Shown here piece by piece: positions 6,122 through 41,177 of a stretch of 64,000 nucleotides of DNA; positions within the stretch are counted from its first letter, which is position 1; each line of letters starts with the position of its first letter. A model generated the notes under the pieces. The model saw only the letters and a program-made list of their open reading frames with translations, was not told where the DNA came from and ran no database searches. Source of the stretch: Candidatus Gastranaerophilales bacterium (GTDB lineage: Bacteria; Cyanobacteriota; Vampirovibrionia; Gastranaerophilales; Gastranaerophilaceae). A program made the position numbers and the translations under genes. Location: the NCBI GenBank assembly GCA_944325575.1, contig CALVAR010000001.1:124001-188000 (forward strand), read 5' to 3'.

Positions 6122-6427
6122 TTATGCATTCAGGTTCAATGTAAAGTCTTTCTTGACGTTAGTATCAAGTATCTTCTGCATACTTTCAAGTTCGCTTGTA
6201 GCAGCCTTCTGCTGAGTTTCAAGGTTCTTTTGCTGCAATTCAAGGTATTGATCCATTGCCTGCAATTGTTGTACTCTCGGATCAGATTCCCAATCTGCAT
6301 CAGCAAGCTGCATAGTTTGATAAGCGATTTGCTGTCTTCTGTTGCTTATTGATGTAATGCTAAATTCAAGATTGCTCTTGTACATAGTTAAAGATAATAA
6401 TCTTGTGTTGATAGCCCCTATAGTCAT
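6122..6427 (-). CDS. Short member of the MGMA(A/T)SQ coiled-coil family
   Basis: 101 residues, mostly helical and Gln-rich. The N-terminus (MTIGAINTRLLSLTMYKSNL) is a degenerate form of the family start seen at 32154, 33484 and 35953. The middle (SDPRVQQLQAMDQYLELQQ) aligns with SDDPMVKKLEARKERLNQ in the 35953 protein. The end (MQKILDTNVKKDFTLN) aligns with the KKVIDKN...FKTF ending of the large members. It has no signal peptide or membrane segment. The function is unknown. It stands alone here, 26 kb from its relatives. Confidence 0.78.
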   Translation of the reverse strand: MTIGAINTRLLSLTMYKSNLEFSITSISNRRQQIAYQTMQLADADWESDPRVQQLQAMDQYLELQQKNLETQQKAATSELESMQKILDTNVKKDFTLNLNA

Positions 6428-27995: not shown

Positions 27996-28064
27996 TTATA
28001 CTTAACATACTATAAAGTAAATTGTGAACCTGCCGATATATATCATATATGCTTGGAGGTCACT

Positions 28065-28880
28065 ATGAATATAAAAGGGGTGTCTGCGTACAGTTTTTCA
28101 ACTAAAAAAGTCGATAAACCAAACAATGCAGAAACAGTTGCTACAGAAAATCTATTTGAAACTGACAATACGTCTTCTCAATTTAGTACACAAACTAAAT
28201 CTGAAGAGTATTTAGTTGAAATGTCAACAATGATAGATTTGGGATCAAGAATGCGTGACAATGTAAATATTGTCACAAAGTTAAATGCGCACGAGCTTGC
28301 CGGTATAATAATCAGCGCAACGTCAAAAGCGTACAGCATTATAAGCTCTGTAAAATCAACAATTTCCGGATATGCATCGCAAATATCAATGCTCCTGAAT
28401 AATCCTTTTCTCAGCGATTCAGAAATCAATGCGCGTATTAATTTACTAAAGGATAAAATTAATGCTGCAATTGATGAAGGCGAATCAAAGATTATGACGC
28501 TCTATTCTGTATCAGAAATACTGATGGCTCTGGCACCGTCATTTGGGGCAATGAATAAAAAGGATTTCGGAACAAATGACGCAATGAGTGTGCTAAAACA
28601 GCTAATTGAAGGTACAAATACAAAGCCGTCCGATTTTAGTAATGCCGAAGACAAAAGCGACCTATATGACATAATTGACAACAATGAAAGCCTCTTATTC
28701 GGGAAAAACGGTGCAAGCCGCATTAACGAAACAAAGACTAAAGTAAATGATAGAATAAAAGATATTGAAGAAAAATTGAAAAACAAAACTCTTCCAAAAG
28801 ACGAAGAAAAGCAGCTCAGACTTGAACTCCTGGTCTGCAAGGCAGAAAAAAGAATATTCGACATTTTATCTGCAAGCTAG
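28065..28880 (+). CDS. Helical protein of unknown function
   Basis: 271 residues from an ATG with an excellent GGAGGT at 28055-28060. The N-terminus MNIKGVSAYSFSTKKVDKPN is Ser/Lys-rich, followed by long amphipathic helices and a Lys/Glu-rich coiled-coil end (INETKTKVNDRIKDIEEKLK). It has no membrane segment, signal peptide or recognised domain. The short leading IKGVSAYSF recalls the short N-terminal tags on other unknown proteins of this window, but the match is weak. Confidence 0.68.
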   Translation: MNIKGVSAYSFSTKKVDKPNNAETVATENLFETDNTSSQFSTQTKSEEYLVEMSTMIDLGSRMRDNVNIVTKLNAHELAGIIISATSKAYSIISSVKSTISGYASQISMLLNNPFLSDSEINARINLLKDKINAAIDEGESKIMTLYSVSEILMALAPSFGAMNKKDFGTNDAMSVLKQLIEGTNTKPSDFSNAEDKSDLYDIIDNNESLLFGKNGASRINETKTKVNDRIKDIEEKLKNKTLPKDEEKQLRLELLVCKAEKRIFDILSAS

Positions 28881-28898
28881 CATAAAAAGGTTATGCTA
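28878..28898. terminator. Hairpin spanning both convergent stop codons
   Basis: TAGCATAA (28878-28885) pairs perfectly with TTATGCTA (28891-28898). The left arm contains the plus-strand stop and the right arm the minus-strand stop. There is no U run, so a bidirectional end or RNA 3' protection is possible. Confidence 0.45.
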
Positions 28899-30348
28899 CT
28901 CTTCCTTTAAAGCTTTGCTCCAATTGTCTTTCTATTTCTGACTGTACATGAAATTCTTTTTTACCGTTTTGATGTGCTTCTCTGTACTTCATCATTGCGT
29001 AAGGTACAATTAAACCTAAACACAGGCAAGAAATTCCCATATTTGCAGCCACAGATGCTATTTTCATATTTCTGCATTTCTTTAAGAAATCTGTAATATT
29101 ATCGTGTTTTGCCGCAAATTTAGCAAGTTTAGACACATTATTTGTAACATCTTCGATATCTCCGACTTTTATGAATTGCATCGGATCAATAAGATTAGTA
29201 TTCTTTGCCCTGTTAAACAGTTTATCTGACCAGCTGCCGTCTACAATAGTTTTAATGATTTTAGACTGCTTAGCAGCTTTAATAACAGTGTTATCCTGAT
29301 TCTTTTCATTATATATAAATTCAAATAAAGCCTTCTTGCTTTCTTCCAATGCCGTCTTATTAGCCTGAGACTTATTGGCATTGAATGTTTTTTGTGCATT
29401 ATTTACGGAATCTATTAACGTTTTTAGAGCATTAACATCGCTATTTACCTTGCCTGACTTAATAGCATTATTCATATAGTCAGATGATAAAACTTCTGCG
29501 TGAAGACCTATTGGTTTTCCTAATTTTTCGCTAACTTTTTCAATACCTTGTTGAACATATCTGCCTGCTATATACAAGAAGAACAATAAACTTCCTTCTT
29601 TTATGGCTGTTTCAGCAAATTCTGTTTTTGTTCTGGAATTTACAAGTCTTTCGCCGGAAATGCCGACATCAACAAGAAACAGGTTTTGAACAGGATCGAA
29701 CATTACATCTTTTAATTTTGCTGCCATAGAGCCAAGCCCTTTAAAGGAAACATTTTTGTTATTAATAGGGGCTTTATCAGCATTATTTTCCGGTAAAAAC
29801 GCTTTAAATGCCGGACTTTGCGCAAATGAATTCATATACTGCATTTGAGCAGATTTTTTTGCCCAGAATTGCTTTTCAATCTCTTTTTTAGTGTAGTGCT
29901 GTTTTACTTTAACAAGAGTAAAGAAAGAAGCCAGAGTCAAAGCTGTTGCAGAGGCGAATTTGCCTAAAAACAGTGCTTTTGTTTTAGTAGTGTTAGAGAC
30001 AGCTTTTGCTATAGATTGTGCAATGTCGGCTCTGTCAGTAAGTGATTGAGCATATTTTTGTGCAACTGAAAGCTGTGCGGTATCCTTTAAAAGTCTATAA
30101 TCGACATCAGGATTAATTTTTGCCAATTTATAAGCAGTATTGTTATATATCCATTTAAAGAAAGGCAATCCGCCCATCCAAAGGGCCATTGTGCCAAATT
30201 CGTCGAGACATCTGTCTTTTGCTTCTATTTTTCCGCCGGCGTCGTAAGAAAAAGCTGTCATACCGGCACTATTAACTACATCTTTTGCAAACAGGGGTAA
30301 TAATGAAGAGTGATCGCCAAATGCTGTTGTAAGTTTATTAATTAACAT
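28891..30348 (-). CDS. Large membrane-associated protein with NVSFKG motif
   Basis: 485 residues from the ATG at 30348 (AAGGAAA upstream). The N-terminal part (LTTAFGDHSSLLPLFAKDVV, DRCLDEFGTMALWM) looks conserved. Hydrophobic helices lie near 125-147, 245-265 and 440-460. NVSFKG is at 199-204, in a linker after a Pro/Asn stretch. The C-terminus is basic and helical. Several other unknown proteins here carry the same NVSFKG-like motif. The function is unknown; I recall similar proteins in related gut genomes. Confidence 0.75.
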   Translation of the reverse strand: MLINKLTTAFGDHSSLLPLFAKDVVNSAGMTAFSYDAGGKIEAKDRCLDEFGTMALWMGGLPFFKWIYNNTAYKLAKINPDVDYRLLKDTAQLSVAQKYAQSLTDRADIAQSIAKAVSNTTKTKALFLGKFASATALTLASFFTLVKVKQHYTKKEIEKQFWAKKSAQMQYMNSFAQSPAFKAFLPENNADKAPINNKNVSFKGLGSMAAKLKDVMFDPVQNLFLVDVGISGERLVNSRTKTEFAETAIKEGSLLFFLYIAGRYVQQGIEKVSEKLGKPIGLHAEVLSSDYMNNAIKSGKVNSDVNALKTLIDSVNNAQKTFNANKSQANKTALEESKKALFEFIYNEKNQDNTVIKAAKQSKIIKTIVDGSWSDKLFNRAKNTNLIDPMQFIKVGDIEDVTNNVSKLAKFAAKHDNITDFLKKCRNMKIASVAANMGISCLCLGLIVPYAMMKYREAHQNGKKEFHVQSEIERQLEQSFKGRVA

Positions 30349-30351
30349 CAA

Positions 30352-31966: not shown

Positions 31967-32153
31967 TAAAAAGATTGACAATATCAAAATAAACATTAAA
32001 TACTCTATAGGTTAGTTGTGCAAATCGTGCATTATAATTGGCATTTAAATACTAATGTAAAGATTTTGTAACATTTTAAACAAGATTCCTAAAGTTTTTA
32101 TATAGAAATGTCGAATACAAAAACAGATATGCAAAACCAAAGGAGTATTAGCA

Positions 32154-33236
32154 ATGGGAATGGCAGCTTCTCAAGCCAGATATTTAAGTTTAACGGCTAG
32201 AAAAACAAATACTGAATATCAAGGTCAACAGGTAAACCAGGAAAGAACTGCATTAGCAAACCAGAGCGCAGGCCTGTTTAATCAAATGTTGTCATTAGAG
32301 GTGCCAACTCCTCCTGTAGCAACTGATTATACAAAAACTTATTATACATATGTAAATCCTGCTAACAGCGAAACTGTTACGATTGACAATATCACTATTG
32401 ATGATGAACGTACAGCTCAGGGCAGTGGAAGTATATATGCATCAATTAGCATTACAGAAAAATATTCAATTTTGCAGGCATCTTCAGTATTATTTGATAC
32501 ACAAGCAGGCGGCATAAACAGCATAATAGAATGTTTTGAACCGACCGGCGAGAGCCTGAATTATACAGCTTCAATTAACGGACAGGGCAGATATACTATT
32601 ACGGGCCCTTCTCCGAACAGAGCTATGACAGAAAAGTTTAATGCAGCAGCAAAAGAAGCAGGCGGCACAGATACAGAATACACAGACAATACTTGTTATT
32701 ATTCATTTACTGTTCCGTCAACAGGCATTGTTTATTACATTCCAGCAGGTGAAGGTACATATGACGAAAGCGGTAATTTTGTAAGACCTACCGTAACTCC
32801 AACAGAACTTCTTGCACAAGCAGGTGCAAATGGAATCAATATACTTGCAACAGAAAGTGCAACAAAAACAGAATCAGATACAAAAAATGCAATTTTAAAT
32901 ACAGCTAATGACGGTACAGGAAGATATGAATCCGTATCAATTTTAGACGATGTTACAGGTGAAATAGTCGCAACTTATAATCTTACACAGCAAACAGTTC
33001 AAGATGATGAAGCATATGATGCTGCTATGGCTACATATACTGCACAAAAAGCAATATATGATAAACAGGTTGCAGACATAAACGCAGAAACAACAGTTAT
33101 CCAGCAACAAGATAAAACTCTTGAATTGCACCTTGACCAGTTAGATACTGAACAACAGGCAATTCAAACAGAAATGGACGCAGTTAAGAAGGTAATTGAT
33201 AAGAACATAGAAGAAACATTTAAAACATTTGCATAA
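32154..33236 (+). CDS. Large MGMAASQ-family protein with variable middle (paralogue 1)
   Basis: 360 residues, no signal peptide. Residues 1-50 (MGMAASQARYLSLTARKTN, then EYQGQQVNQERTALANQSAG) and about 290-360 (LELHLDQLDTEQQAIQTEMD, then KKVIDKNIEETFKTF) are helical and nearly identical to the next gene. The middle 240 residues are Thr/Asn/Ser-rich, beta-like and hardly conserved. Helical ends around a variable core are the plan of flagellins and related secreted polymers, though no flagellin sequence signature is present. AAGGAG precedes the ATG and a terminator follows. The function is unknown. Confidence 0.85.
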   Translation: MGMAASQARYLSLTARKTNTEYQGQQVNQERTALANQSAGLFNQMLSLEVPTPPVATDYTKTYYTYVNPANSETVTIDNITIDDERTAQGSGSIYASISITEKYSILQASSVLFDTQAGGINSIIECFEPTGESLNYTASINGQGRYTITGPSPNRAMTEKFNAAAKEAGGTDTEYTDNTCYYSFTVPSTGIVYYIPAGEGTYDESGNFVRPTVTPTELLAQAGANGINILATESATKTESDTKNAILNTANDGTGRYESVSILDDVTGEIVATYNLTQQTVQDDEAYDAAMATYTAQKAIYDKQVADINAETTVIQQQDKTLELHLDQLDTEQQAIQTEMDAVKKVIDKNIEETFKTFA

Positions 33237-33249
33237 TACTCCGATTTTT

Positions 33250-33306
33250 AACAGGCTTTCAAAATGAGTTTTTTAAAGAAAGTCTCACAGAAAGCCTGTT
33301 TTTTAT
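33250..33306 (+). terminator. Intrinsic terminator between the two large paralogues
   Basis: AACAGGCTTTC (33250-33260) pairs perfectly with GAAAGCCTGTT (33290-33300), followed by a T run. The paralogues are therefore probably transcribed separately. Confidence 0.85.
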
Positions 33307-33483
33307 TAAAAAATCGTATACATCAAACAGAGTATTTTTGTATGCATAGGCTTTAAAAAAGGATAAATAACCCATTATAATAATGGTAACAAATCTTAAT
33401 ATTAAATGGAAAAATAATGACTTTTACACAAGGATAATTAAATTTTAATAGGTTAGTAAGAAGCAAGAAACGGAGACAAATAT

Positions 33484-34458
33484 ATGGGTATGGCAGCATC
33501 TCAGGCCAGATACTTAGGCTTGACAGCAAGAAAAACTAATGTTGAGTATGAAGGTCAACAGGTCAACCAACAAAGAACAGCTCTTGCAAATGAGAGTGCA
33601 GGATTATTCAGGAGAATGCTATCTCTTGATGCACCGGTAGCTCCGACACAAAATGACTACTATACTGACGTTTACCAGTACAGTGATCCTACATCATCTG
33701 ACGGAAACGTAACTGTTAAGGACATTCGTGCAAACGGTACATCTCCGGAAACTTATACAGTAGATATATCCTACACAAGAAATGTTACAAATTATGCCTG
33801 CTCCGATAATCAGGAGATATCTGTATTTAAATCCGGTGATCAACTTAAAATACAATTGAGTAACGGTACAATATACAATTTGGATGAAACAACAGTATCT
33901 CAAACACTTATAGATAATTTGAACAAAACAGCAAATTATCCTTACGGTGAAGAAATGAATACCGGTGATACTTATTATACTTTTACAAATCCAACAAACG
34001 GATGCACATATTATATAAATGCAACAAAATCCGGTTTTGATACAGAGTCAACCAGTATACAAAATCTTGCATTATTCACAACAATGTCAAGCACTGAAAC
34101 GGTAAATGACACAATAGAAAATGCAACTCTGGGCGAATCTGAAGGCGGTATTTATAACTCTATGTATTGGACTGATTCAACCGGAAATCAGCGCAATGTA
34201 TCCCTTACTCCAGCTCAGGAATATGACGAACAAGGTTATAATAATGCAATGGATCAATACAATGTTGATAAAGCAAATTATGAAAAAGAAATTGCTGATA
34301 TCAATGCTAAGACTGAAGAACTACAGCAAACAGACAGAACACTGGAATTGCGTTTAAAACAGCTTGATACAGAGCAAGAGGCTCTCCAGACAGAGCTGGA
34401 TTCAGTTAAAAAGGTTATTGATAAAAACGTTGAAAATGTATTTAAGACATTTCAATAA
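33484..34458 (+). CDS. Large MGMAASQ-family protein with variable middle (paralogue 2)
   Basis: 324 residues. The first 50 match paralogue 1 at most positions (ARYLGLTARKTNVEYEGQQV, RTALANESAGLF), as does the last part (LELRLKQLDTEQEALQTELD, then KKVIDKNVENVFKTF). The middle has a different length and sequence and is rich in Thr, Asn and Tyr. No signal peptide or membrane helix is present. The AACGGAG site lies 7-13 bases before the ATG. The following Gly/Ala-rich gene starts 32 bases after its stop. Confidence 0.85.
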   Translation: MGMAASQARYLGLTARKTNVEYEGQQVNQQRTALANESAGLFRRMLSLDAPVAPTQNDYYTDVYQYSDPTSSDGNVTVKDIRANGTSPETYTVDISYTRNVTNYACSDNQEISVFKSGDQLKIQLSNGTIYNLDETTVSQTLIDNLNKTANYPYGEEMNTGDTYYTFTNPTNGCTYYINATKSGFDTESTSIQNLALFTTMSSTETVNDTIENATLGESEGGIYNSMYWTDSTGNQRNVSLTPAQEYDEQGYNNAMDQYNVDKANYEKEIADINAKTEELQQTDRTLELRLKQLDTEQEALQTELDSVKKVIDKNVENVFKTFQ

Positions 34459-34490
34459 TTAAACGTTATATAAAGATATGCGAGGTTACA

Positions 34491-35318
34491 ATGTCTTATA
34501 AAAATGATGGATACCTGGTAATAGCAAATAAGTTCAGTAAGGCTAGCTCTGACGCAAAAGCACAGCTTTTTGAAACTTATGACAGATTGAGAGATATAAC
34601 CGTGAGCGGTTCATCTCTTGACGGTGCAGGTTTTGGTACTGCCGGAAGTTTCTTGTGGCAGATTGCAAGATTAATTTCACCAAGTGCTTTTATGCCGGTA
34701 CTGGGCGGTAATACTACAATGAACATACCCGGTACGTCATACTGGTCACCAATAAGCGGTGGTAACTCCATTCTTGACAGTGGTTCTGCTGCGTTTGGTA
34801 TCACGGATTTAGGCAATTATCCGGGATTTCCAAGCGGTGCTGCGCCGATAGCATGGGGCTTCGGAATGGATACAAGTTATTCAGGAGGAACAATTACAGG
34901 CGGTGCATCCAGTCTATATTCCGCCAGCAGTATAGGCGGCTCTGTAGGACTTAATGCCGCGGCATACGGCGCAGGTGTTGCAACGGGCTTTGGCGTTCCC
35001 GGTACAAGCTGGCTGCTTCCTACTGCAGGTGTTGTTTCGGGTTTTGCGGGTGTTGTTCAGGCAATGGCACCTTATATGGGCAGCTTTGGACTCGGTGCTA
35101 CTGTTCTTGGAAACTTACTGCAAGGTACTACATCCGCCGGGCTTGCAGCATATCAAAATATTTCGGGTAATATTTTATCAAATGCTGATACAGTGCTTTC
35201 TAACAAAGTAAGAAATATAGAAACTGTTGTAAAAATGCTTGATACACAGGGCGATATCGTTAAGAAAATGCTCAAAAATGATATCGAAGGCGATAGCAAA
35301 CAAGTACAAAATATGTAA
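34491..35318 (+). CDS. Gly/Ala/Ser-rich hydrophobic protein with helical ends
   Basis: 275 residues. Residues 1-40 form a charged helix (SKASSDAKAQLFETYDRLRD). Residues 45-225 are very rich in Gly, Ala and Ser with hydrophobic stretches (SWLLPTAGVVSGFAGVVQAM, then LGATVLGNLLQ). The last 45 residues form another charged helix (KVRNIETVVKMLDTQGDIVK). There is no signal peptide. The plan, helical ends around a hydrophobic core, is seen in pore-forming translocators, but no family is recognised. It lies in one run with paralogue 2. Confidence 0.75.
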   Translation: MSYKNDGYLVIANKFSKASSDAKAQLFETYDRLRDITVSGSSLDGAGFGTAGSFLWQIARLISPSAFMPVLGGNTTMNIPGTSYWSPISGGNSILDSGSAAFGITDLGNYPGFPSGAAPIAWGFGMDTSYSGGTITGGASSLYSASSIGGSVGLNAAAYGAGVATGFGVPGTSWLLPTAGVVSGFAGVVQAMAPYMGSFGLGATVLGNLLQGTTSAGLAAYQNISGNILSNADTVLSNKVRNIETVVKMLDTQGDIVKKMLKNDIEGDSKQVQNM

Positions 35319-35625
35319 TAGCAGGAATTCGATGAATCGTACATATATAAGAACTTTTAACTCAACAATTTTTGACAAAGTATTTATTCTTTCATTAATA
35401 AAAAGAATTGTAACTTTTTATTACAATTCCTTTATTTTTCACCCTAATATATTCAAGAATTATAAAAATGTGTCGACTAATACAACAGAACACAAGAATT
35501 GTCTGGCATTCTTAAAAGCCGCTGATAATTCAAATATAAACTTTATATATTAAGAAATATTAATTTTTTTTCTTATATAAGGCAATTAAACAGGGTGTTC
35601 TGTTTTTATAGTTATGTAGGTCCAA
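35319..35625. other. 307-bp intergenic region in the MGMAASQ locus
   Basis: It holds a terminator-like hairpin (35405-35440) near its start and A/T-rich sequence beyond. An open frame from 35332 runs through the hairpin and is not called as a gene. Confidence 0.5.
35405..35440 (+). terminator. Intrinsic terminator after the Gly/Ala-rich gene
   Basis: GAATTGTAA (35405-35413) pairs with TTACAATTC (35421-35429), followed by CTTTATTTTTC. Confidence 0.7.
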
Positions 35626-35919
35626 ATGGTGGACAAGGAGTCAACATTGTTTCAAGATGCGATAATGTTAAATTTGCAAAAAATAGTGAACTTCTTCGGC
35701 TACTTAATGGCGTACTTTAGAAGACACAATCCTCTGCAAGCGTTTGTGAATCAGATAGTAAGTATGATAAAAGATTATTTGACCATGAACAGAAAATTAA
35801 AAATGGCCAAATACAGAGTTAATTATCAAATGTACAAACTGAACCAGATGGAGCAGCTGATTGCAGAAAACAATGAGCACGTTTTCTTAAGAGGAAACAA
35901 ACTCAATATCCAAAGATAA
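35626..35919 (+). CDS. Small helical protein of the MGMAASQ locus
   Basis: 97 residues from the ATG at 35626. A TTG at 35647, in frame, has a better AAGGAG six bases upstream and would give 90 residues. The protein is almost all helix: a hydrophobic first part (IVNFFGYLMAYFRRHNPLQA) and a basic coiled-coil second part (RKLKMAKYRVNYQMYKLNQM). No family is recognised. It is followed after 33 bases by a short MGMATSQ member, so the two are probably co-expressed and might form a pair. Confidence 0.65.
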   Translation: MVDKESTLFQDAIMLNLQKIVNFFGYLMAYFRRHNPLQAFVNQIVSMIKDYLTMNRKLKMAKYRVNYQMYKLNQMEQLIAENNEHVFLRGNKLNIQR

Positions 35920-35952
35920 CTATAAATACAGCTAGATAGGGGTAGGCCAGCT

Positions 35953-36276
35953 ATGGGAATGGCAACGTCACAATTAAGACTAATGTATTTAAATGCTTAC
36001 AGGCTTGATCTGGAGTATAAAATACAGCTGATTACTGAGGCAAAAATGAATCTGTCCAAGACATGTACGGATTTATTAAACGTCGGTACAGATCTTGATT
36101 CGGACGACCCTATGGTTAAAAAGCTGGAAGCAAGAAAAGAACGCCTAAACCAGATGGAAAAGAAACTCGATATGCAAATGCAGCAGTATCAAAATAAACT
36201 TAAAATGATTGATACTGAATATCAGTCCTGCGACCAAATGCTGCAAAAGAATATCGAGCGGTCATTCAAATATTAA
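35953..36276 (+). CDS. Short MGMATSQ coiled-coil protein
   Basis: 107 residues. It begins MGMATSQLRLMYLNAYRLDL, the same start as the large paralogues, and ends in QMLQKNIERSFKY, matching their KKVIDKN...FKTF end. The variable middle is absent and a short SDDPMVKKLEARKERLNQ linker replaces it. It is therefore a minimal form of the family, like the 6122-6427 protein. The protein is wholly helical, with heptad-like Leu/Met/Gln spacing. Confidence 0.8.
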   Translation: MGMATSQLRLMYLNAYRLDLEYKIQLITEAKMNLSKTCTDLLNVGTDLDSDDPMVKKLEARKERLNQMEKKLDMQMQQYQNKLKMIDTEYQSCDQMLQKNIERSFKY

Positions 36277-40315: not shown

Positions 40316-41177
40316 ATGTATATAATTAAGATTATTAATGCACAAGTTAATATACTGTATATAAAATTGAAGCTCTTATTTGTAAAAAACAAAAAATTAA
40401 GAACAAGATATAAAAAATTTGCCCTCTATTCAATTTCGAATAAATTAAGCAATTCACTAAAATGGGGAATATCTTATTCTGTATATGACGGCGAAGAACT
40501 GCTGGAAAAATCTCTCAGAAGCATTAGGAAACAGGCCGACTACATAAATGTCGTGTATCAAACTAAATCCTGGTATAAAGAGCCATGTTCCGAAAATTTA
40601 GTTGATGTACTCAATCATTGTAAAAAACTCGGACTTATTGATGAGCTTATAGAATACAAACCTGATTTTCATTTGTCAGCCGGTAAACAAGAGCTAAAAA
40701 AAAGAAATTTGGGATTAAAACATGCTAAAATAGCACATTGCGACTATTTTATGCCAATGGATACAGATGAATTTTATTTTGACACGGAAATTGAAAAAAT
40801 AAAAAGAGAAATTTGTATAAAAAAATATAACAAATTCGTTCTGTCTTCAAAAAATATACAAAAGTCCAACAGAACAATTTGTGCATATACCTAAAAATGC
40901 AGTTACATTATTTTGCAAAATAAACGTATTTTCTAAAATGAAACCGGACAAAAATAATATAATACTTGTGGATCCTACCCGGCAGATACATAGAATATTC
41001 AACAAAAAATATCAAGTATTTTTAGATATTTATATGCACCACTATTCACATCTGAGAAAAGATTTATCGAAAAAATTAAGAAATTCATCTGGCCGAGCAA
41101 CTGAAGCAGTGAAAAAATCAGATAATACAACAATAAAAGTAAAAGATTATTTTAAATTAAATGAAATATTTAAATAA
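40316..41177 (+). pseudogene. Glycosyltransferase broken by a +1 frameshift at an A7 tract
   Basis: Frame 1 runs from the ATG at 40316 (AGAAGAG upstream) to a stop at 40892. It includes WGISYSVYDGEELLEKSLRS and the metal motif FMPMDTDEFYFD. The C-terminal half continues in the next frame: LQKIYKSPTEQFVHIPKNAV onward to 41177. That frame opens only after a stop at 40818, so the shift lies between 40818 and 40892. An A7 run at 40819-40825 is the best site; with one A less the gene would encode about 286 residues. The cause may be a true mutation, a phase-variable tract or a sequencing error. Confidence 0.8.

Follow-up and report, generated by a model that had tools for sequence, protein, structure and literature searches.

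We describe a protein family of the bacterial order Gastranaerophilales that is real, order-wide and undescribed, and that combines a flagellin-like architecture with flagellar-class promoters. Four of its members are encoded in the window, by which we mean the whole 64,000-nucleotide (nt) stretch analysed here (contig CALVAR010000001.1 of assembly GCA_944325575.1, positions 124,001 to 188,000 of the forward strand, from a Candidatus Gastranaerophilales bacterium). Most relatives of this organism carry two sets of flagellar-type export genes, one of which belongs to a second, flagellum-derived machine. We judge it somewhat better than an even chance that the family comprises late, sigma-28-driven export substrates of this second machine, probably its axial proteins; export and polymerisation are the parts of this proposal that we infer.

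A family with conserved ends and a diverged middle

The family members in the window, with lengths in amino acids (aa), are:

32154 to 33236, plus strand: member A, 360 aa; N-terminal helix, long variable beta middle, C-terminal helix
33484 to 34458, plus strand: member B, 324 aa; modelled as helix (residues 2-47), beta domain (60-247) and helix (249-323)
35953 to 36276, plus strand: short member C, 107 aa; consists of the ends alone and is modelled as a two-helix hairpin (H2-45, H53-105)
6122 to 6427, minus strand: short member D, 101 aa; ends only

All four open reading frames (ORFs) are real and lie where a first-pass annotation of the window had placed them. That annotation described the first 50 and last 70 residues of A and B as nearly identical and their middles as different. 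The description holds for the N-terminus (82% identity) and is too strong for the C-terminus (64%), while the middles are 25% identical. Moreover, BLAST aligns A and B over their full length (E=4.6e-68, 40% identity), so we reject unrelated middles and regard them as diverged homologues. Members C and D match the N-terminal and C-terminal ends of A and B separately, in agreement with the proposal that the short versions keep only the ends.

The family is larger than the four members first recognised. The source genome (G000) encodes at least eight, including members on contigs C8 (starting at 41170 and 72140; 225 and 131 aa), C12 (40162; 267 aa) and C1 (18083; 179 aa), and from all loci we collected 151 distinct sequences, of which the 149 that span both ends range from 101 to 736 aa. 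Mean identity to B is 79% over residues 1-47, 28% over residues 48-248 and 66% over residues 249-323. For member A, the ratio of nonsynonymous to synonymous substitution rates (dN/dS) is about 0.12-0.38 in the middle and 0-0.04 at the ends, values that are only rough because dS is high. The terminal motifs first proposed, MGMA(A/T)SQxR(Y/L) and KNxExxFKxF, broaden to an N-terminal M-G-[MLYF]-[AS]-[AS]-S-Q-x-R and a C-terminal V-K-K-V-[IM]-[DE]-K-N-[IV]-x-x-x-F-K-x-F. As had been noted, no signal peptide is apparent: members have no N-terminal hydrophobic segment (maximum 19-residue Kyte-Doolittle mean of at most 0.6 in the first 40 residues).

Two giant members of 708 and 736 aa (L088:4051-6177 and L090:3955-6165) give several profile matches each, as if the middle were duplicated. 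At the protein level, the final 23 codons of the C12 member occur again at the end of contig C9 in the source genome (76675-76737), and the C12 gene may therefore be duplicated or broken in the assembly.

Profile searches bear out the claim that the family is undescribed. No Pfam, NCBIfam or PHROG model exceeds its cut-off for the family (weak coiled-coil matches only), which leads us to reject a known enzyme or domain family as its identity, and a family-profile search of PDB sequences returned coiled-coil noise only (best E 0.021). The flagellin families PF00669 and PF00700 do not match, and nothing among the Pfam needle families (SctF-type) matches at E up to 1. The two outcomes named beforehand as contrary to a filament-like plan were a match to an intracellular enzyme family and a model whose ends do not pack; neither was found.

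Predicted fold of long and short members

An AlphaFold2 model of B, built with 54 family sequences, has a mean predicted local distance difference test score (pLDDT) of 87.9 and a predicted template modelling score (pTM) of 0.55. It consists of two terminal helices with a beta domain inserted between them, and the short member C is modelled as a bare hairpin (pLDDT 89, pTM 0.70). The flagellin plan, in which conserved terminal helices pack together around a variable inserted domain, is thus seen both in the predicted model and in the regional identities.

When the 1000 candidates returned by Foldseek for the B model were realigned with VIA-align, the top 24 rows were all flagellar axial proteins (Z 9.5-6.3), comprising FliC (flagellin), FliD, FlgL, rod and hook proteins. 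The Pseudomonas aeruginosa filament (8sug_A) superposes on the model with a root-mean-square deviation (rmsd) of 1.6 Å over 109 residues and FlgL (5yti) with 2.1 Å over 119 residues; FlgG scores Z about 7.8 and hook 7.5. The short hairpin matches 503 chains at Z >=8 and is hence uninformative in this search; in Foldseek it matches best to IpaB, a type III translocator, in the coiled-coil part (E 0.037). On its own, the likeness of the predicted B fold to axial proteins is suggestive, and it becomes strong only in combination with the regulatory evidence.

Sigma-28 promoters upstream of family genes

An unbiased search for 8-mers enriched upstream of 155 family genes recovered TAAAGTTT in 44 upstream regions against 3.8 expected, and TGCCGATA in 18 against 0.2 expected. 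The full consensus recognised by sigma-28 (FliA) is TAAAGTTT-N11-GCCGATAA. The two enriched 8-mers are the halves of this promoter, with a spacer of N11 or N12 in the family sites, and each half can be found in the literature on FliA promoters (PMC7286023, PMC2859248, PMC4866697).

At a fixed score of at least 20 of a maximum of 24.5, sigma-28 sites are present in 56 of 121 non-redundant family upstreams, compared with 15 of 895 control ORFs from the same loci (Fisher 6e-44). In the top-scoring genes the site lies mostly 55-83 nt ahead of the start. Some top-scoring controls are themselves unannotated putative members of the regulon, including the window gene at 28053. Among flagellins, 4 of 15 parsed cases reach a score of 20. 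The sites and gene concerned in the window are:

32090 to 32117, plus strand: candidate sigma-28 promoter of A, TAAAGTTT-N12-GTCGAATA, score 20 of 24.5, 64 nt 5' of the start codon
28013 to 28039, plus strand: candidate sigma-28 promoter TAAAGTAA-N11-GCCGATAT, score 21.5, upstream of the gene at 28053
28053 to 28880, plus strand: 275-aa unannotated protein, unrelated to the family, with a sigma-28 site

Taken alone, the site ahead of A is weak (nine sites score at least 19.5 in the window, both strands counted); orthologues of A have perfect sites at the equivalent position. Orthologues of the 28053 gene at two other loci (L022 and L018) score 23.5 and 21.5, and this gene is a possible further regulon member and second candidate export substrate.

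FliA itself scores over its curated cut-off in all 11 tested genomes of Gastranaerophilales, Vampirovibrionales and a further lineage termed f8 (see below), flagellin-less genomes included, and no FliA over cut-off was found in G041, a genome of the same phylum without FlhA. Transcription from sigma-28, as known for flagellins, is therefore indicated for the family by the promoter motif together with the presence of FliA, with some members lacking a site.

Distribution and likely ancestral form

A search of related genomes, which the first-pass annotation had suggested, found the family in every one of the 40 relatives, at 3-22 hits per whole genome. In a phylum sample of 292 genomes it was present in 131, all from the same family or order, and was not detected in the other 161, among them all five f8 genomes. 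Among the matches listed from a scan of one genome per GTDB species, nearly all bore one of the labels Gastranaerophilales, Melainabacteria, Vampirovibrio(nales), cyanobacterium and uncultured bacterium; a single genome had a Clostridiaceae label, which is probably wrong.

Three Vampirovibrionales-type genomes (G320-322), found via loci labelled Vampirovibrio or Cyanobacteria, have about 6-8 family hits each. Their strong hits all fall in short open frames of about 110-150 aa, so that the short form is the only form detected there. Because of this, the family is likely to have started as the bare hairpin, into which the beta middle was inserted later.

A second flagellar-type export machine

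Absent from the first-pass annotation was a second flagellar-type export machine, and it is the likeliest partner of the family. The export gate proteins FlhA and FliP are present in 40 of 40 relatives, most of which have two copies of each. A tree of FlhA separates a flagellar clade from a second clade with full support, and the source genome has one copy in each: that on contig C23 is flagellar (over the TIGR01398 cut-off) and that on C5 is of the second type. The second set in the source genome is distributed as follows:

Contig C5: FliF-like, FliH-like and FlhA-like proteins and FliI, with an unclassified gene in the FliG position
Contig C21: FliM/N-FliO-FliP-FliQ-FliR, with O, Q and R assigned by operon position and reading of the sequence
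Contig C12: second FlhB
Contig C30, one operon: FlgF/G-like, FlgB-like and FlgC-like proteins, a lytic transglycosylase (SLT) and FliE

In one relative (G037) the rods, FliE, FliF, FliH and the second-type FlhA (FlhA2) are contiguous.

Flagellins are present in 37 of 40 relatives. The remaining three, G023 (99% complete), G024 (98%) and G037 (87%), lack both flagellin and flagellar-type FlhA; their FlhA and FliP are solely of the second type, and rods and FliA are kept. The same genomes have 22, 7 and 10 family hits, respectively, some with sigma-28 sites. That flagellin-less genomes keep both the machine and the family argues that the family serves the second machine.

A sister lineage, f8 (G115, G134, G144, G265 and G269), has a diverged FlhA of the second type, and other machine parts are found there as well: FlhA with FliI in G115 and G269, rods with FliF in G115 and G144, and FliE with FliH in G144.

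By the definition of a non-flagellar type III secretion system (NF-T3SS) in PMC3459982 (Abby and Rocha), at least seven of the eight core components SctJNQRSTUV are required, and the second machine supplies them as second-type FliF, FliI, FliM/N-like, FliP, FliQ, FliR, FlhB and FlhA. The same definition calls for the absence of flgB, flgC and fliE, whereas FliE and FlgB/FlgC-type rods are present here; because these are kept, the second machine falls outside the published definition. Nor is it a flagellum, since it occurs without flagellin in G023, G024 and G037.

Several further genes were seen around this machine. A diverged FliA/WhiG-like sigma factor (frames of about 220-270 aa) lies within about 100-400 nt 3' of the second FlhB in the source genome (G000:C12:15788-17514) and at the equivalent place in most genomes listed, those of f8 and G320-322 among them, and the second machine may thus have a sigma factor dedicated to it. 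On contig C8 of the source genome, L129:7473-8933 encodes a 486-aa protein corresponding to the cytosolic half of FlhA without the membrane part (TIGR01398 E 1.7e-45, from profile position 318), and most relatives have a similar short C-terminal FlhA match. A small, secreted-looking protein of 125 aa with no Pfam match (L133:11820-12197) is encoded inside the second FliP-FliQ-FliR operon of the source genome. In f8, an unannotated protein of 266-273 aa lies between rod genes (L198:7222-8022, L199:9299-10120) and could be the functional counterpart there of the family or of its partner X, described next.

Partner proteins encoded beside long members

Two further genes lie between B and C:

34491 to 35318, plus strand: partner X, 275 aa; glycine-rich middle between conserved terminal segments; begins 33 nt downstream of B
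35626 to 35919, plus strand: partner Y, 97 aa; conserved gene flanked by X and C, with homologues in 30 loci

X is found in 34 of 40 relatives, and each of its 43 distinct copies follows a family member at a distance of 12-136 nt. Neither X nor Y has a Pfam match over cut-off, and hhalign finds a weak tail match between X and the family (E 0.008, probability 5%). Our suggestions for their roles (cap, tip or chaperone) are guesses. In G322 a member and X lie 5.7 kb from a rod/FliE cluster, with an opposite-strand gene in between.

A short [VIL]SF[KS]G motif (for example NVSFKG, RNLSFKG, SISFSG) is common to unrelated unannotated proteins in the window (28891-30351) and at two other loci (L009:2890-3180, L010:5065-5559); it may be a signal for sorting or processing that is characteristic of the order.

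Comparison with known axial and needle proteins

The family resembles flagellin (FliC) and FlgL (HAP3) in its constant N- and C-terminal helices that are predicted to pack, its inserted variable domain, the absence of a signal peptide, the sigma-28 promoter, the several copies per genome and its best solved-structure matches. It differs from them in having neither a Pfam flagellin match nor a profile-profile match; true flagellins are separate, and the family persists where they have been lost. The flagellin-like plan of the first-pass annotation therefore stands as to helical ends, inserted beta domain and axial-protein fold, is backed independently by the promoters, and does not extend to sequence: the family is like flagellin by plan and is not a flagellin by sequence. 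With rod and hook proteins (FlgB/C/F/G/E) it shares a terminal helix pair and an inserted beta domain; it has no rod signature, and the second machine has its own FlgB/C/F/G-like rods.

Among needle and translocator proteins (SctF, IpaB-type), SctF has published sequence similarity to FliC/FlgL (PMC3459982). The needle plan, a two-helix hairpin of about 80-100 aa, is shared by C and D, and long members exceed it. Unlike SctF, the family has no Pfam needle match, a longer C-terminal helix and, in long members, an inserted domain. A close known parallel to the machine is the NF-T3SS of Myxococcales (PMC3459982), which is likewise flagellum-derived, has no motility function and was once read as a relic. 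That system lacks FlgB, FlgC and FliE, whereas the present machine has FliE and FlgB/C/F/G-like rods.

A model for the family and its alternatives

In the model we favour, family members would be transcribed late from sigma-28 and exported by a flagellar-type type III apparatus, most likely the second, non-flagellar one (FliE/F/H/I, FlhA2, FlhB2, FliM/N-like, FliP/Q/R2 and short rods) that is kept throughout Gastranaerophilales. Once past the inner membrane, members would assemble into an axial filament or rod extension through their constant helical ends, packed like those of flagellin, FlgL or rod proteins. Short members might form a bare shaft and long members might add an exposed variable beta domain, with X and Y, encoded directly 3' of long members, as putative cap, tip or export partners. 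More tentatively, and short of an even chance, we propose that the result, in these non-photosynthetic relatives of cyanobacteria, is a non-motile second appendage on a rod-only flagellar machine, its filament made of this family and not of flagellin, with an ancestral bare hairpin shaft and a fast-evolving beta coat in gut lineages. The flagellum would then have been converted independently into a different kind of surface device.

Several observations weigh against this model. Foldseek found nothing significant with the B model (best E 0.024, to a chain of the Salmonella flagellar cap-filament complex), and because such E-values are weak and matches of two-helix and long-helix proteins are common, the fold evidence is suggestive only. 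By hhalign, the family has no sequence homology to flagellins of the same order (probability <1%) or to their rod proteins, and we reject a flagellin or rod homologue at the sequence level. Among members of the source genome, B, C, D, F, G and H have no sigma-28 site upstream; since B and C lack their own site, transcription of B, X, Y and C may rely on the promoter of A or on another. In other bacteria sigma-28 also drives genes whose products are not exported. Neither sigma-28 control nor a flagellin-like plan is proof of export, and exported proteins need not form a filament. No family gene was found in an operon with apparatus genes in any of the loci examined. Finally, f8 has the machine and no detected member in any of its five genomes, so the machine either predates the family or does without it, and we reject the family as a strict companion of the machine.

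The best-surviving rival, which we consider improbable, holds that the proteins are non-polymerising type III effectors, adhesins or translocator-like proteins, with ends for export or chaperone binding, an active middle, and X as pore or translocator. High copy number (up to 22 hits), fast-evolving middles, a glycine-rich X always paired with a member and the IpaB coiled coil as best Foldseek match of a short member would all suit such proteins. Yet both ends are conserved and predicted to form one helical pair, unlike an export signal confined to the N-terminus; the short members, at about 107 aa, lack any effector part and are the sole form detected in G320-322; and the likeness to the IpaB hairpin reflects a common coiled-coil arrangement.

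Slightly less probable again is that the proteins are minor parts of the ordinary flagellum (hook-associated, sheath or alternative filament), exported via the flagellar FlhA. Flagellins do occur in nearly all relatives, some under the same sigma-28 promoter, and the predicted fold resembles FlgL and flagellin. What tells against it are G023, G024 and G037, which have a single FliP and neither flagellin nor flagellar-type FlhA, yet retain the family in numbers.

Intracellular coiled-coil proteins (regulators, chaperones or scaffolds) that happen to sit in the sigma-28 regulon would explain the missing cleavable signal and the generic hairpins of short members; we hold this to be quite unlikely, as large beta middles and relaxed constraint between conserved ends better fit exposed surface proteins, and the folds that match best belong to axial proteins that are exported. 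Least probable of all is a different export route (type IV pilus/type II, or type I) with no type III link: a PilT-like ATPase gene adjoins the second FliM/N-FliP operon in G024, but members have no signal peptide or pilin motif, and the sigma-28 promoters and axial fold point elsewhere.

Implications for Gastranaerophilales and their relatives

Genome papers describe an incomplete flagellar gene set in some Gastranaerophilales and read it as a loss of motility in progress (PMC4040986, PMC5877343). The published incomplete set is probably the second machine described here, and part of it would then be a separate, conserved apparatus for export that has a regulon and candidate axial proteins of its own. 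That species without flagella keep both the family and this machine suggests a surface structure or secretion system that has gone unrecognised. An attachment pad and spike have been observed in Vampirovibrio, which is a predator, and ascribed to a type IV system (PMC4451040); a device of the type III kind would be an alternative, and the family is a directly testable protein target in Vampirovibrionales relatives. If the model is true, the flagellum would have been exapted once more, to a device through which these uncultured gut bacteria probably interact with their surroundings.

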